The position numbers and the translations under genes are program-made. Source: Thermocoleostomius sinensis A174 (GTDB taxonomy: Bacteria; Cyanobacteriota; Cyanobacteriia; Elainellales; Elainellaceae). Taken from it: 64,000 bases of DNA. Below the pieces are notes generated by a model that saw only the letters and a program-made list of their open reading frames with translations, searched no databases and was not told where the DNA came from. The stretch spans positions 5,309,026-5,373,025 of the forward strand of contig NZ_CP113797.1 in the NCBI RefSeq assembly GCF_026802175.1, in the 5' to 3' direction. This document shows, in pieces, positions 21,850 through 27,707 of this stretch. Within the stretch, counting starts at the first letter, position 1. Every line of letters begins with the position of its first letter.

Positions 21850-23508
21850 CTACTCATAGCTAGCTCTTTCAGGTAGCTTACAAAATGCCTGGGCCGGATA
21901 TTTAGGCAAGGTGGCCGCCAGCATCAAACAAATTCCTGTACATAGCAGAGCAATCAGCAAGGAGGTTCGCATTCCTACCAGCGCTGCTTCTAGCCCGATC
22001 GGGCGAATTAACGGAGCAATCGAGGGCGGCAATTGGCTAGATAATGTAGCTTCAAGTTCTTGGCGTGACAGCGTTTGAATCATTTCCTGCAATTGCGCAA
22101 TGATCTGATTGCGTTGAACAGGAGGTAAAGTTCTACCCATCTTTTCTAGAAGACCGTCTACAATGTTTCGAGAGGCAAAGGAAATCAAAGCTGTGCCTAG
22201 AATAGCTCGTCCTAGGGAACTACCCAAATTCTGTACTGGGTTATAGATTCCTGAACCTTCTGGTTTTTCATCGGCTGTGGCAGCAGAATAAGTCAGTTTA
22301 CTAATATAGGATAGAAATAAACCAGAGCCAATACCCATCACAATTAATCCTGGCATTAAATCTAAGGATGTGATTTGCGTCTGTAAGCTACGATAAAGTA
22401 ATCCAATTCCGATCGCAATTAGAACAATGCCAGTATGTACAATATATTTTGGTGGGATGCGATCGCCTAACATCAAACACTTGAGAATTACAATCACAAC
22501 AATAATCATCGTAATGTTGTAGGGAATAATAGTAAGCGCAGTCTGAAACGGATTTAGTGACAGCGCTACAGGCACAAATTGAAATAAATTAAACTGTAAT
22601 CCAGTTGTAATTAATGTATGCAGCATAGCAGTCAGCAAGCCTAATACGAAACCACGCTTGCGTAATAGTCCGGCTCGTAATAACGAGGCCATGCGTCGAT
22701 CTGCCTGCCGTCGCTGCCAGAAGATAAAGAACCCCAACAAAATTATGCCAACCGCAATTAGGGTGGGGACGATCGACAGGGCAAAGGGAGGAATCACCAC
22801 ACCAGCAATTGTAAACAGGCGCTTGGGTTGCCACCAGCCAAACTCAGCCGATAGGCTAATGCCGATTAAAATAAAGCCCAGTCCCCAAAAGGACAGTAAC
22901 CCGCCGACCCAATCGATCGGTTGTTGATAGCGGGTCACTAGCCTGGGGAGCGATCGGTGCAACAGTCCAACCACCACTAAAACGACCAAAGCTGGTGCAA
23001 AGGCCCAACGCCAACTAAACTGCGACGCCAAATAGCCGCCTAGCAACGCGCCAGACAGTCCCCCCAAGGACGAGGCCACAATCAGCGCTACATTCGCTTG
23101 CTCTTCTGCTTTGCCATCAAACGCCAAGTCAGCAATGGCCCAGGGGGTGCTAATCAACGGGGTTGCAGCTACCCCAGTCAACAGCGAAAAACTGACGGCG
23201 AGCATTCCCATCGCAGGGCTGAGGGCAGTCAGCGCAATGCCAATGCCATACAGCATCAACCCCAAGAGAAAGACGGGCGTTCGGCCATAGAAGCGACACA
23301 GGTTCTCAGTCGTAGGAGCGAAGGAAGCTGTCACAAGCGAAAATAGTACTAGAATACTTTGAATGTAACCAATACTGGAATTGAAATCAGACACGATCGC
23401 TGGCATGATTGCTGGCATGACGCTCACACTATAGGCAATCATGAATAACGTCAAACTGATTGCCCAAAATCCTTTTCGTCCTAGCTGTACGGTTCCTGGT
23501 TGATTCAT
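21850..23508 (-). CDS. MFS transporter, 14-TM DHA2-type
   Basis: A 552-residue membrane protein with about 14 hydrophobic segments, the length and layout of the DHA2 drug:proton antiporter group. The loop between helices 2 and 3 (ENLCRFYGRTPVFLLG) is the motif A region in altered form, and the helix 5 region GGLSGALLGGYLASQFSWRWAF is the antiporter motif C. Substrate unknown. Its start overlaps the yihY stop by 4 bases (ATGA), so the two are translationally coupled. Confidence 0.88.
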   Translation of the reverse strand: MNQPGTVQLGRKGFWAISLTLFMIAYSVSVMPAIMPAIVSDFNSSIGYIQSILVLFSLVTASFAPTTENLCRFYGRTPVFLLGLMLYGIGIALTALSPAMGMLAVSFSLLTGVAATPLISTPWAIADLAFDGKAEEQANVALIVASSLGGLSGALLGGYLASQFSWRWAFAPALVVLVVVGLLHRSLPRLVTRYQQPIDWVGGLLSFWGLGFILIGISLSAEFGWWQPKRLFTIAGVVIPPFALSIVPTLIAVGIILLGFFIFWQRRQADRRMASLLRAGLLRKRGFVLGLLTAMLHTLITTGLQFNLFQFVPVALSLNPFQTALTIIPYNITMIIVVIVILKCLMLGDRIPPKYIVHTGIVLIAIGIGLLYRSLQTQITSLDLMPGLIVMGIGSGLFLSYISKLTYSAATADEKPEGSGIYNPVQNLGSSLGRAILGTALISFASRNIVDGLLEKMGRTLPPVQRNQIIAQLQEMIQTLSRQELEATLSSQLPPSIAPLIRPIGLEAALVGMRTSLLIALLCTGICLMLAATLPKYPAQAFCKLPERASYE

Positions 23509-24476
23509 GAGGTTCTATGCCGACGACTACCAAAAAGTTGTGCATATACATAAGAAAATACGCAGCCTAGCAAGAAAATTTGACAGGTCAGGAAAATCCA
23601 CAGTAACAGGATCATGACGCTGCCAATGACTCCATAGGAGAGAAAGTGACTTCCGATCGTAATGACGCTATTGCTAACCAATTGCTGCAATCCCACGAGT
23701 AACAGAGCAGTCAGCAGTGCACCCAACCACACATCTTGCCAACTGACATAAACCGAGGGCAAAATTTTGAACAAAATGCAAAACGCAATGGCCAATAGCA
23801 AAAACGATGAGCTAGTTTGCAAGCCGCGCGTCAGTTGCAATTCATCGACCTCAATAAATGAAAACGTATGCTGAAAATTACTAACTAGTTGAAGAATAGT
23901 TTTAATAACAATGTTGGAGATTAATGAAGTCAGTAACAAGAGCGCCACTCCTAGCACCAACAGAAATGCAAACAATCGATTTGCAACAAAGAAAAGCACC
24001 ATTCTAGACACCGAACCAACCTCGGATGCCCGACTTGGCGATCGCCAAATTCTATTGACTGAACTTCTAAGAATGGTGAAGACGGCGCTAGAAGTCCACA
24101 CCAAAAGGCCAAAGCCAATCAGTCCGGCTCCGACACTGTTTTGGTTCAAGGCAATCACCGTATCCCGAACAAGATCATGCACTTCCGGGGGCAAAAATCG
24201 CTGGGCAGCTTCTTGAATGGTTTGAAATGCTTCCGTGTTGGGACCAATCACGGCTCCAATCACACTCAGAATGACTAACAGCATCGGAAATAGGGAAAAC
24301 AGCGCAAAGTAGGCAAGCGAGGCTGCCATACCGGGGCCGTTATCTTGATCCCACTTGATGCCCGTTTGAATCAAGAGTTGAGCTGGTCTTGAGGGCAGAA
24401 CTGTCGATCGAATGTAGGGTAGAACCGTGGACTGAAGATGTCGCATCATTGGTTTGATATCAGGCTGTACCATCAT
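23505..24476 (-). CDS. YihY/BrkB family inner-membrane protein
   Basis: A 323-residue protein with about six membrane segments. The motif DNGPGMAASLAYFALFSLFPMLLV is the signature of the family, once misannotated as RNase BN. The role is not settled; some members have been linked to envelope or anionic lipid transport. It begins 7 bases after the DUF3124 gene and overlaps the MFS gene. Confidence 0.9.
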   Translation of the reverse strand: MMVQPDIKPMMRHLQSTVLPYIRSTVLPSRPAQLLIQTGIKWDQDNGPGMAASLAYFALFSLFPMLLVILSVIGAVIGPNTEAFQTIQEAAQRFLPPEVHDLVRDTVIALNQNSVGAGLIGFGLLVWTSSAVFTILRSSVNRIWRSPSRASEVGSVSRMVLFFVANRLFAFLLVLGVALLLLTSLISNIVIKTILQLVSNFQHTFSFIEVDELQLTRGLQTSSSFLLLAIAFCILFKILPSVYVSWQDVWLGALLTALLLVGLQQLVSNSVITIGSHFLSYGVIGSVMILLLWIFLTCQIFLLGCVFSYVYAQLFGSRRHRTS

Positions 24477-24483
24477 TAGTTGA

Positions 24484-25020
24484 CTAGTTTGGAGTAGGTG
24501 GGCTACTGGTTCGATCGCGAATGACTCGTCCGGGACTGATCAAAGAAATTCCTTGGTTGCCGCTGGCATTTAGCATGACCGATTCAATCACTGGAGTAGA
24601 AACCGCTTGCCGAGCCACCCATTCGACAACAAACGCTGCTCCCACTCCGCCGCTAGCATCTTCTTGCTCCACCACAAAACTGGTTGACGCCAACGGTTCC
24701 AGTTCTATCGGTTGCTCTAAATAGCTGCGAACCAGTTCACCAGCGTCATTGTAATACTCGACCGAGGCAACAATCATGGCATGGGTTAGGTCTGTGTTGC
24801 GGACGCTGAGTGTGGCAGTCAGGTCAATCGTTTGGCTCTGCTGCCACATGTAAATTTGCGAGTAGATGGGAACGTAAACAGTTTGCCCTGCAACGAGTTG
24901 GTCGGTACTATCTAGGGAAACCGTTTTCAGTGGAGTGGTTGGTGCCGGTGGTGGAGGGGAAGCACAGGCTGTCAGCGATATCATCAGAGTTGCAACATAA
25001 CCAAAAACCGATCGCTTCAT
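24484..25020 (-). CDS. DUF3124 family lipoprotein
   Basis: A 178-residue protein with a short signal peptide ending in the lipobox LTAC, a Pro-rich spacer and a single beta-rich domain containing QTVYVPIYSQIY and the ATLSVRNTD strand, both typical of DUF3124. Expected to be anchored by lipid in the periplasm or at the outer membrane. It lies 68 bases after the C45 fusion gene and is tightly followed by yihY. Confidence 0.85.
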   Translation of the reverse strand: MKRSVFGYVATLMISLTACASPPPPAPTTPLKTVSLDSTDQLVAGQTVYVPIYSQIYMWQQSQTIDLTATLSVRNTDLTHAMIVASVEYYNDAGELVRSYLEQPIELEPLASTSFVVEQEDASGGVGAAFVVEWVARQAVSTPVIESVMLNASGNQGISLISPGRVIRDRTSSPPTPN

Positions 25021-25088: not shown

Positions 25089-27707
25089 CTACAGTGCCGG
25101 AGATTCACACGGTGTTGCATCTGGGAAGTTCAGCATCTCTCCTAAGGAAAAGCAGACAAACGGATTCTCAGGGACAGGAGGTTGCCCCGCTGCCACCCAA
25201 AGCAGAAGTCTATCGGGATCATAGATACCTTGCCGCATCGACCCATTACCGCCCGGGCTGGCATCATCATCAAACACCTTTAAGGGGCTAGCCTCTAGGG
25301 TGTCAGGATTCACGCGATCGCGCCCGATTTTGGCCATGGCAGCCGGATCAATAGTGCCATAAAGTGAGCTAACGCCATTTGGTTCCATCAGTTGGGCAAA
25401 GCGATCGAAGCGAGACAGGCTGGATTGACTGAGGGGAAAGCGCTGGCGATCGAACATCTCTTCTAAAACAATGTGATTAGTGACATACACCACACCGTTG
25501 TCTTGCAGTTCTCGCACGCCCAAATTGCGACCTGTAAACTCAAAGGCTCCCGCTTGTTTGGATTTACCATCAGTGATCATAATCAGATTAGCGTGAACGC
25601 GGGGTTCGCTATCCATGATCTGTCGCGCTTCTGCAAAGCTGGTGGCGGTGTTCAAAATTTGCGCCATGATCTGCACATTACTGCCGCCTTCAAACGATAG
25701 TTCGTTGTGCCCAGCGTGGACAGTATCCAGTCCTACCGTAATTCCCGCTGTATTCAGCCCCCAATTCGGCCAGATCATACCGGGATAGGTAATAAATACA
25801 TGTGGCAAACCATCATTTGGCTGACGTACAAACACCACTGGATTGTTCATGATGTAATCTACTGGCTTTTTATTATTATCCAGCGTGCTGCCGTGATACA
25901 GCCGTCCATCTTTCGTAGCGTCTCCGGTTGCCACCCACTGAGCGCATCCATCCCAAAACAGCACATCGGGTAAAGCGGTGCCAAAGATGGCTTGATAGAC
26001 ATCGCCGTAGGCCAAAACTAGACAGGCTTCGATCGTCATACCAATATCCTGAGTTGCATCTGTTAAGCCCTGACACTCTTGGGCAATCTCAGGATAGGAG
26101 CGATGAGCCGCTAATCGTCCCAATGCCAGCCCTCGACCTGCAAACCGTAGTGCTCCCATGATGTCACTACCCAACGACGCAATCTCGTCATGTAGGTATT
26201 GCCCGTGTTGATAGCCCATCTCGTAGGGGGTGCCTTGCAACCAAACCACTTTGATGATTCCTTGATCTTCGCGATGGGGGGCAACTGGCTGCCAGTTGGC
26301 GGGTAAAAATTGAGCGCGTTCGATCGGATCAAGGGTAGGAGTTGTCATCACCGTCGCCATCGCTGGGCCAATCGGAGGTTGCTCTCCAACGGGTTGGTCA
26401 CACGTACAGAGGGTTTCAGCGGCCGAGGCTTGCAGTTGCACCAACCAGTCTTCAATGCTAACAGCGGTGGCTCTCACTCCTCCTTGAGCTTGAAAGCGGC
26501 TAGCGTTACGCCCCAATCTGGCTAATCGTGCTCCATTGATCGTCACCTGTGGAGTGGGATACCGCTGTAAAATTTCGAGCAACGACAGGTGATTGTCATC
26601 GGCGGCCGATAGCACACTCGCCGATCGCAGTGCTTGAATGTTGGCAGTATTCGATCGCGTTTGTATCACCTGCCCCACTTGGTAGAGCAAATATTCCCCG
26701 AGCAGATTATTCAGCGTTTGATCGAGGAATCTTAAACTCACAGACACTTCTTGGGTCAGCGCCGATCGAACGATCTCTGGGTCAACTCCCGCCACATTAA
26801 AGAAAAATCCCCAACCCGAAGGCAATTCCCCCGTTTCAGCAAAGCGCGTCAGATCTTGCATCGACATCGATCGACCAAACGGGCCAAACCGGAACCGCAG
26901 TTCTTTATTAGCCAGCGCCGGAGAATCGCTGGGTTCTAGAGCAATCAGTGCTGGATCGGTCGAATCGATCGTTCGAGCCTCCACTAGTTTTTCATTCCCT
27001 AGTTTGGTGGTTGGTGCGGCGATTGGCAGTAGGGCAGCGATATCACGGCGTGCTTGATTATAGTCAATCCTAGCTTGGGACAGCGATACATCAGGCGATT
27101 CTGTCGGTAGATTACAGTCGCACAGAAGTTCTGGTAGCAGTGCTTGCGCGATGTTTAAAAGGGGTTCAATGCGTGTCACCAACGAGTTTACATCCGTATA
27201 CACTTGTTCAAGACGATGCACCTCTAGTCGAACACTCGATTCAGGATAGTTCTCTAAAACATTCAAGATCGAGAAGGAATTATCGTCTTTTAGGGCACGC
27301 TCGAAGGCGGTACGCAAGGGTTCCAGACTTTCTCGTCCAAGGGGATCGCCCACCACTTTATTAATTTGCAATAAGACAAATTCGGAACCGACCTGACGCA
27401 CTTCTGGTGGTGGCGTGATCTCGGTGGTCAGCCATTGTTTCACGTCAGCCGGATTGTGATTGGTCTCTTGCCAAAACTGCTGTAGCTCAGGCGACGTTGC
27501 TTCATCGGCAATAAACGCTTGTAGCTCTGCTAATGCGATCGTCATCCTGACATCGCGCGATTGCAGCAGCACGGTTCCAGAGGCAGAAACCGGACGAATC
27601 AAGAACAAAAAACTGATCCCAATTCCCAGAAGTAGATACACACCCGATCGCTTCCAGCGAATGGTGAGACGATAGAGAATAGCAAATACGCTAAATAGGT
27701 GCAGCAT
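25089..27707 (-). CDS. Double DUF1400 plus C45 peptidase/acyltransferase fusion
   Basis: An 872-residue exported or anchored protein with a hydrophobic segment at about 24-42. Residues about 43-165 and 285-410 are two DUF1400-type domains, a cyanobacterial domain normally placed ahead of alpha/beta hydrolases; the second has the clear GEYLLYQVGQVIQ...ALRSASVLSA pattern. The C-terminal 370 residues belong to the C45 Ntn-hydrolase family (acyl-CoA:6-APA acyltransferase/phospholipase B-like): ...WLQGTPYEMGYQHG early, candidate self-cleavage and nucleophile Cys588 in DGCAQW, then NWGLNTAGI. Cleavage at Gly587/Cys588 is inferred. No alpha/beta hydrolase triad was seen. It leads the envelope gene run. 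Confidence 0.82.
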   Translation of the reverse strand: MLHLFSVFAILYRLTIRWKRSGVYLLLGIGISFLFLIRPVSASGTVLLQSRDVRMTIALAELQAFIADEATSPELQQFWQETNHNPADVKQWLTTEITPPPEVRQVGSEFVLLQINKVVGDPLGRESLEPLRTAFERALKDDNSFSILNVLENYPESSVRLEVHRLEQVYTDVNSLVTRIEPLLNIAQALLPELLCDCNLPTESPDVSLSQARIDYNQARRDIAALLPIAAPTTKLGNEKLVEARTIDSTDPALIALEPSDSPALANKELRFRFGPFGRSMSMQDLTRFAETGELPSGWGFFFNVAGVDPEIVRSALTQEVSVSLRFLDQTLNNLLGEYLLYQVGQVIQTRSNTANIQALRSASVLSAADDNHLSLLEILQRYPTPQVTINGARLARLGRNASRFQAQGGVRATAVSIEDWLVQLQASAAETLCTCDQPVGEQPPIGPAMATVMTTPTLDPIERAQFLPANWQPVAPHREDQGIIKVVWLQGTPYEMGYQHGQYLHDEIASLGSDIMGALRFAGRGLALGRLAAHRSYPEIAQECQGLTDATQDIGMTIEACLVLAYGDVYQAIFGTALPDVLFWDGCAQWVATGDATKDGRLYHGSTLDNNKKPVDYIMNNPVVFVRQPNDGLPHVFITYPGMIWPNWGLNTAGITVGLDTVHAGHNELSFEGGSNVQIMAQILNTATSFAEARQIMDSEPRVHANLIMITDGKSKQAGAFEFTGRNLGVRELQDNGVVYVTNHIVLEEMFDRQRFPLSQSSLSRFDRFAQLMEPNGVSSLYGTIDPAAMAKIGRDRVNPDTLEASPLKVFDDDASPGGNGSMRQGIYDPDRLLLWVAAGQPPVPENPFVCFSLGEMLNFPDATPCESPAL

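Follow-up and report, generated by a model that had tools for sequence, protein, structure and literature searches.

Among enzymes of the C45 class of N-terminal nucleophile (Ntn) hydrolases, the best point of comparison for the protein described here is isopenicillin N acyltransferase (IAT; NF040521/PF03417). Acid ceramidase and NAAA are also relevant; acid ceramidase requires saposin-D, a separate protein, for full activity, and its Arg159 is the proposed autocleavage base (PMC5915598). DUF1400 (PF07176) is treated in published accounts, PMC11878206 among these, as a domain preceding an alpha/beta hydrolase or as a kind of alpha/beta hydrolase, and AsmA-like proteins are proposed phospholipid transporters (PMC8593681). 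We analysed a 64,000-nucleotide stretch of the cyanobacterium Thermocoleostomius sinensis A174 (assembly GCF_026802175.1, contig NZ_CP113797.1, positions 5,309,026 to 5,373,025 of the forward strand), hereafter the window, and focused on a gene at window positions 25089–27707 of the minus strand whose product contains two DUF1400 domains followed by a C45 Ntn-hydrolase. We favour, with confidence that is about evenly balanced, a reading in which DUF1400 is an exported lipid-handling partner and the window protein is an envelope acyl-amidase/acyltransferase that carries a dedicated DUF1400 pair on the same chain.

The best structural match of the C45 model, compared by Z-scored structural alignment and Foldseek, was IAT (2x1c; Z 36.0, rmsd 2.5 Å over 328 residues), followed by the NAAA precursor (Z 29.5), acid ceramidase (Z 29.1) and the 66.3-kDa phospholipase-B-like protein (Z 25.4). 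The window protein resembles IAT in this predicted fold, in a profile score over the family cut-off and in conservation of the nucleophile Cys and of the residues at IAT positions 246 and 268, but differs from it in being exported (as predicted), in its fusion to two DUF1400 domains and in sharing only 20% identity. With acid ceramidase and NAAA it has in common the predicted catalytic fold and an N-terminal Cys after the expected cleavage; unlike these, it has Ser607 in place of the autocleavage-base Arg and no match to their Pfam family. A scan of the window protein against profiles with E up to 1 returned just DUF1400 and AAT, and membership in the acid ceramidase family was therefore rejected. 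The DUF1400 model had no match in the solved structures searched. The cyanobacterial DUF1400-alpha/beta hydrolases (PF07176 plus Abhydrolase) are similar in having DUF1400 N-terminal to a hydrolase, whereas their catalytic fold is unrelated, they contain one DUF1400 and none has the C-x-C motif that follows the DUF1400 copies here (0/5). Short AsmA-like proteins of cyanobacteria, which resemble the lipid-transport proteins YhdP, TamB and YdbH, are also fused to or encoded beside DUF1400, but lack a hydrolase.

The gene begins with an ATG at 27707, its stop codon ends at 25089, and there are zero internal stops. Its features, in window positions, are as follows.

25089–27707, minus strand: whole gene, 872 aa (signal peptide, DUF1400 copy 1, linker, DUF1400 copy 2, linker, C45 Ntn-hydrolase)
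27582–27707, minus strand: likely Sec signal peptide, aa 1–42, judged by hydropathy and eye
27204–27584, minus strand: DUF1400 copy 1 (D1), aa 42–168
27114–27122, minus strand: C-x-C motif that follows D1 (C196, C198), shared by every fused or split double-DUF1400 protein examined
26517–26912, minus strand: DUF1400 copy 2 (D2), aa 266–397
26400–26408, minus strand: C-x-C motif after D2 (C434, C436)
25122–26276, minus strand: C45 Ntn-hydrolase domain, aa 478–862
25944–25946, minus strand: codon of Cys588, predicted N-terminal nucleophile; candidate cleavage Gly587/Cys588
25887–25889, minus strand: codon of Ser607, three residues ahead of Asp610, at the Arg159 position of acid ceramidase by motif
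25878–25880, minus strand: codon of Asp610, conserved active-site Asp, equivalent by motif to acid ceramidase Asp162
25476–25478, minus strand: codon of Asn744, probable oxyanion-hole Asn
25410–25412, minus strand: codon of Arg766, conserved Arg
25152–25154, minus strand: codon of Cys852, in the C45 domain

This architecture had been proposed, with the strand left unstated, from the letters of the window alone (the sequence-only reading), and profile searches confirmed it, placing two DUF1400 domains and the C45 domain in one protein over curated cut-offs, with DUF1400 in both N-terminal segments and a C45 core around Cys588. PF07176 matched two stretches of the protein (whole-protein E 9.4e-49), and in the genome search both copies exceeded the gathering cut-off of 23.4 bits (118.9 bits for D2, 55.7 for D1). 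The NCBIfam profile C45_proenzyme (NF040521) scored 122.1 bits over aa 491–832 (cut-off 85), and Pfam AAT (PF03417) 42 bits over aa 626–777 (cut-off 23.2). The AlphaFold model of the protein had a mean pLDDT of 83, with values >90 in most of the C45 part and low confidence in the D1–D2 linker. The signal-peptide-like start contains a hydrophobic stretch from near aa 23 and ends in ..PVSA/SG, with Ala at −1 in 10/10 aligned fused proteins. The fusion is not an assembly artefact, since nine other fused proteins, 51–67% identical to the window protein, align with it.

C45 and double-DUF1400 genes are genomically linked, by adjacency in several arrangements, by fusion and by co-occurrence in the sampled genomes. 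At ten loci a C45 gene was followed on the same strand by a double-DUF1400 gene, an order that is the reverse of that in the fusion; these split loci were found in G296, G298 (an Oscillatoriophycideae record), G425, G426, G444, Calothrix MO_192.B10, Leptolyngbyaceae MO_188.B28, Nostocaceae MO_167.B47, M. testarum BC008 and Mastigocoleus MO_188.B34, the DUF1400 gene of the last being broken after D1. The two genes are divergent neighbours in Oculatella LEGE 06141 (G319), and in G536 the C45 gene adjoins no more than a remnant of a DUF1400 gene, an intact copy being present elsewhere in the genome. Among 388 genomes of the class, in which about four candidates were scored per genome, so that a weak second copy could be missed, 21 contained a full-length C45 of this type and a 22nd (G292) contained a fragment. 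A single-frame double-DUF1400 protein was detected in 19/388 genomes, and 19/19 were among the 21 with a full-length C45; only proteins in one frame without stops were counted, and stop-spanning matches, which represent two-gene operons, remained uncounted in G502, G313, G294, G002, G066 and at the second locus of G302. Ten of these 19 genomes keep the parts as separate genes (three of the ten have, in addition, a copy that is fused, broken or truncated), and the co-occurrence is therefore not only a trivial effect of the fusion. The two C45 genes without a double-DUF1400 partner, in G293 (69% complete) and G306 (100% complete), encode no signal peptide and have in-frame stops immediately ahead of them, and their products are sister to all others with support of 93/93, slightly below the usual threshold. 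Within the order of the window genome, with the C45 fragments of G292 and G321 scored as absent, the contingency counts for C45 and double-DUF1400 were 14/2/0/20 (Fisher test, p 3e-8); by genus, the only level at which these tests were corrected for relatedness, they were 9/2/0/10 (p 2e-4).

Signal-peptide-like N-termini were seen on the separate proteins examined (10 C45 and 9 double-DUF1400 proteins); these were judged by hydropathy and eye, and the weakest were those of the C45 of G425 and of the DUF1400 proteins of G444 and G319. The sequence-only reading had described DUF1400 as a targeting or substrate-presenting module. Its presenting or partner role is supported by the split and fused gene pairs and by AsmA-like fusions described below. 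Pure targeting is disfavoured because the separate C45 and double-DUF1400 proteins each have a signal-peptide-like N-terminus of their own, and targeting as the main role of DUF1400 was set aside.

The architecture occurs across several cyanobacterial genera, and a survey of it, as had been suggested, placed it in one clade. When 292 genomes sampled from the phylum were searched, only the window genome and G011 gave full-length matches to the entire window protein. The fusion was present in nine of the 36 genomes of the window's order (G000, G011, G295, G300, G301, G302, G304, G309 and G317, the last with two copies); the copy of G303 is broken by a stop codon and that of G305 is cut at a contig edge. 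One more fusion, that of G345, came from the class-wide search and belongs to a different family. Among the carriers with names are Pegethrix bostrychoides GSE-TBD4-15B, Elainella saxicola E1, Elainella sp. Prado103 and Leptolyngbyaceae SL_7_1. In a C45 tree of 34 chosen rows (midpoint-rooted for drawing; the truncated G305:C28, the G292 copy, the near-duplicate L182 and most of the distant C45 loci were left out), all fused proteins formed a single clade with support of 100/100, which indicates one fusion event.

Cys588, Asp610, Asn744 and Arg766 were each present in 34/34 aligned C45 proteins, and Gly587 in 32/34; the count for Cys588 refers to C45 rows only, as the last Cys of six double-DUF1400 rows shares that column in alignment A2. 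In IAT, residues 246 and 268 are the aligned counterparts of Asn744 and Arg766. The sequence-only reading had numbered the candidate processing site correctly as Gly587-Cys588, and residue 588 superposes on the first mature residue of NAAA (126), acid ceramidase (143) and penicillin V acylase (1). Autocleavage at 587/588 fits the C45 family and plausibly remains the natural expectation. The residue three ahead of Asp610, whose equivalence to acid ceramidase Arg159 is based on the R-x-x-D motif, was Ser in 12/12 rows of the fused clade, Arg (6), Trp (5) or Gly (4) in split enzymes, and Arg in 5/5 outgroup rows and in both enzymes without a signal peptide (G293, G306). In IAT we take this residue to be Gln. 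The autocleavage base of the window protein would therefore differ from that of acid ceramidase. Two further cysteines, C562 and C852, were conserved in 27/27 DUF1400-associated C45 enzymes. The two enzymes without a signal peptide have Ala/Ser in place of C562 and Gly in place of C852, and among outgroup enzymes C562 was present in 4/5 and C852 in 0/5 (Gly in all 5). Cys852 is therefore a candidate disulfide cysteine that may have been gained along with the DUF1400 partnership, as a single event on the tree. Close C45 enzymes of Deltaproteobacteria (L183, L185, L187, L189) have lipobox-like N-termini by eye, which suggests membrane-anchored lipoproteins; DUF1400 was absent from their fetched loci.

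The window genome contains nine DUF1400 domains in eight proteins, namely the fusion, two single-domain proteins and a sequence group of five longer proteins; DUF1400 was present in 27/27 good-quality genomes of the order. Three of the five longer proteins were scanned and all proved to be alpha/beta hydrolases, and the remaining two fall in the same group by sequence, in agreement with the earlier description of DUF1400 as an N-terminal companion of alpha/beta hydrolases in cyanobacteria. One of these hydrolases (L160:5582-8188) bears an additional C-terminal SBP_bac_3 solute-binding domain. The further proposal that the module is shared by hydrolases was too narrow, as DUF1400 also occurs in stand-alone, operon-pair and AsmA/TamB-fused forms, the stand-alone proteins being 172–221 aa long. 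DUF1400 itself is not an alpha/beta hydrolase, and the name it has in Pfam, 'alpha/beta hydrolase of unknown function', misleads. The predicted domain has about 130 aa, with a beta-hairpin followed by helices and one short strand, and the D2 model has pLDDT >90 in its core. Against the PDB, with a saposin-like fold among the possibilities considered, this model gave no match below E 1.9 and none with Z ≥2 among the chains compared; a PDB sequence search with DUF1400 returned just weak matches, to one designed protein (E 0.01) and one chimeric protein (E 0.83). No known fold was thus found for DUF1400 among the PDB structures searched or viral models, and we do not claim a new fold.

The double DUF1400 probably derives from a two-gene operon. 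Adjacent single-DUF1400 gene pairs in constant order occur in many cyanobacteria (17 pairs among fetched loci). A tree of 100 DUF1400 domains grouped the first copy of fused and split proteins with gene 1 of the operon pair (SH-aLRT 86) and the second with gene 2 (SH-aLRT 93), the latter group also holding alpha/beta-hydrolase and AsmA-linked domains. This was a quick tree with SH-aLRT support alone and many weak inner branches, in which the partial D2 of G303 and the Mastigocoleus MO_188.B34 protein were left out; its ten labelled groups need ten changes, versus a shuffled mean of 68. A C-x-C motif at the end of the domain (counted in rows with a DUF1400 envelope >100 aa) was found in 20/20 domains of fused proteins, 20/20 of split double proteins and 27/34 of operon pairs, as well as in both pieces of the broken G303 gene (2/2). 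Of the seven operon-pair domains without it, six retain a single Cys in that place and the seventh reads CDEC. The motif was absent from unpaired DUF1400 domains (0/19 single genes, 0/5 alpha/beta-hydrolase fusions, 0/1 AsmA fusion). The grouping of D1 and D2 with operon genes 1 and 2, together with the C-x-C motif common to paired domains, suggests that the D1:D2 pair, possibly linked via these cysteines, is probably the older unit. At nine fetched single-DUF1400 loci (L132-L136, L138, L140, L142, L143), a gene of one sequence cluster was located nearby; the single member scanned is translation initiation factor IF-2, apparently a case of unexplained conserved synteny.

DUF1400 is also linked to short AsmA/TamB-like proteins. 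One single-domain DUF1400 gene of the window genome sits between a VTT (DedA-type) gene and the gene for a 1205-aa DUF748/AsmA-like protein; the DUF748 score of this protein was below the Pfam cut-off, and the TamB score of its G298 homologue was above it. Frame length served for the initial choice of short AsmA-like proteins, which were then re-checked by sequence; the truncated AsmA frames of G297, G299, G305, G309, G310, G320 and G323 belong to the long paralogue. By sequence, 10/11 short AsmA-like proteins are clear members, and that of G295 is doubtful (390 and 407 bits, about equal to both paralogues). DUF1400 is fused to or beside the short AsmA-like protein in 10/11 genomes of the order, seven with an adjoining DUF1400 gene and three (G296, G298, G317) with a C-terminal DUF1400 fusion; none was seen in G295. 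A VTT/DedA gene adjoins the AsmA cluster in 10/11 genomes. The AsmA and C45/double-DUF1400 clusters adjoin in G298, and one gene lies between the two clusters in G296. All 11 genomes with a short AsmA-like protein were among the 14 with C45 and double-DUF1400, and 0 among the other 22 of the order (11/3/0/22 by genome; 6/3/0/12 by genus, p 0.0015). With G295 omitted, the genus counts, worked by hand, were 5/4/0/12 (p 0.006).

DUF1400 is favoured as a lipid-binding or lipid-presenting partner, and C45 as an exported acyl-amidase/acyltransferase, because extracytoplasmic acyl-lipid handling is common to the recognised partners of DUF1400. The fold matches of the C45 domain (IAT, NAAA, acid ceramidase) are enzymes acting on acyl amides. 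In such a scheme, the protein would be exported by Sec and its signal peptide removed. By analogy with the family and fold, cleavage before Cys588 would free the catalytic amino group and yield an alpha chain, comprising the pro-region along with D1 and D2, and a beta chain of 285 aa. D1 and D2, which correspond to two neighbouring genes in many cyanobacteria, would form a pseudo-heterodimer, possibly held by the C-x-C cysteines. The DUF1400 module may then bind an acyl lipid, or extract it, at a membrane surface or in the periplasm and present it to the C45 active site, much as saposin-D does for acid ceramidase, and Cys588 would transfer or hydrolyse the amide-linked acyl group.

Several observations weigh against this scheme. 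C45 genes without nearby DUF1400 are found in many phyla, and G293 and G306 have no double-DUF1400 at all, so DUF1400 is not required for C45 chemistry in general. On the tree, the fusion, Cys852 and Ser607 each go back to one event, so that their correlations carry little independent weight. Where acid ceramidase has the Arg proposed as its autocleavage base, the fused clade has Ser607 and the split enzymes have R/G/W. The predicted DUF1400 fold had no match among the solved structures searched, and the saposin analogy is therefore one of role only. The AsmA-like cluster of the window genome is located 2.3 Mb from the fusion, G011, G309 and G319 contain C45 and double-DUF1400 without a short AsmA-like protein, and the VTT gene is missing at the AsmA cluster of G300. 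Finally, no neighbour with a link to lipids was recognised at the operon pairs or at the majority of single DUF1400 genes, although the greater part of these neighbours was not scanned.

A broader and clearly more tentative version of the same idea is that DUF1400 is a so far unrecognised periplasmic lipid-shuttle adaptor of cyanobacteria, a counterpart of lysosomal saposins in role, not in fold, which is captured here as a fusion. Short AsmA-like bridges and their DedA-type partners might bring lipids across the envelope, where DUF1400 proteins, single or as Cys-linked D1:D2 pairs, would pick them up and pass them to acyl-processing enzymes of unrelated folds, such as alpha/beta esterases and C45 Ntn amidases.

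The strongest rival, which we regard as doubtful, is that DUF1400 acts as a folding or maturation factor for exported hydrolases, an intramolecular chaperone or inhibitory pro-domain with no lipid of its own. DUF1400 lies N-terminal to the catalytic domain in the fused hydrolases, the C45 enzymes without a signal peptide (G293, G306) also lack DUF1400, as expected if the export route needs help, and C562 and C852 in all 27 DUF1400-associated enzymes would fit periplasmic oxidative folding. However, DUF1400 also occurs at the C-terminus of AsmA-like proteins and in stand-alone proteins and operon pairs with no hydrolase recognised adjacent, and the lipobox-like deltaproteobacterial C45 enzymes do without it in their fetched loci. 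It seems unlikely that DUF1400 serves for localisation, attaching to a fixed site of the envelope (peptidoglycan, an outer-membrane protein or the S-layer) and tethering different proteins there. Such a role would account for the presence of DUF1400 with at least three unrelated partners, but the split C45 has its own signal peptide and no covalent tie to the double-DUF1400 protein, so that tethering would need a stable complex, and stand-alone DUF1400 proteins would have nothing to tether. We consider it improbable that the enzyme is a secreted amidase of the acyl-homoserine lactone (AHL) or beta-lactam acylase type, which degrades signals or antibiotics in defence or quorum quenching with DUF1400 as a passive accessory; the fold does match cephalosporin acylase and the AHL acylase MacQ (Z 21–25), but it aligns better with IAT, NAAA and acid ceramidase (Z 29–36), and the AsmA association points to membrane lipids. 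That the fusion is a neutral accident without functional coupling, as its single origin and the stop codon in the G303 copy might suggest, is very improbable and already largely refuted by the class-wide co-occurrence searches, given the retention of the fusion over a divergent clade, the repeated adjacency in other arrangements and the 19/19 co-occurrence.

To our knowledge, the movement and remodelling of lipids across the double envelope of cyanobacteria are poorly understood. With the split and fused pairs, DUF1400 gains two concrete partners besides the known alpha/beta hydrolases, namely a short AsmA-like protein and a C45 Ntn amidase, and its role becomes directly testable. The C45 class is known; the DUF1400 partner, its split and fused evolution and the AsmA link were not met in the literature searched. 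Within the PMC library searched, DUF1400 is named in three papers and its accession PF07176 in two, and a search on cyanobacterial IAT-like enzymes and C45 proteins returned nothing on this architecture by title or abstract start. In one account, DUF1400 was removed from an alpha/beta-hydrolase set as a preceding domain (PMC11878206). Section 2.9 of the same source gives PF07176 for PhaC_N, and other parts give PF07167, apparently a transposed number.

One further feature lies downstream of the gene and outside the fusion.

24484–25020, minus strand: co-directional DUF3124 protein with a lipobox-like N-terminus

It belongs to a nearly gapless run on the minus strand, directly 3' of the fusion (21850–25020), which encodes the DUF3124 protein, a BrkB/YihY-family protein and an MFS transporter. 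A functional link to the BrkB/YihY neighbour was set aside, as no paper on one was among those listed by the literature search. A gene of the BrkB cluster is also close to the fusion in genomes G301, G302 and G295.

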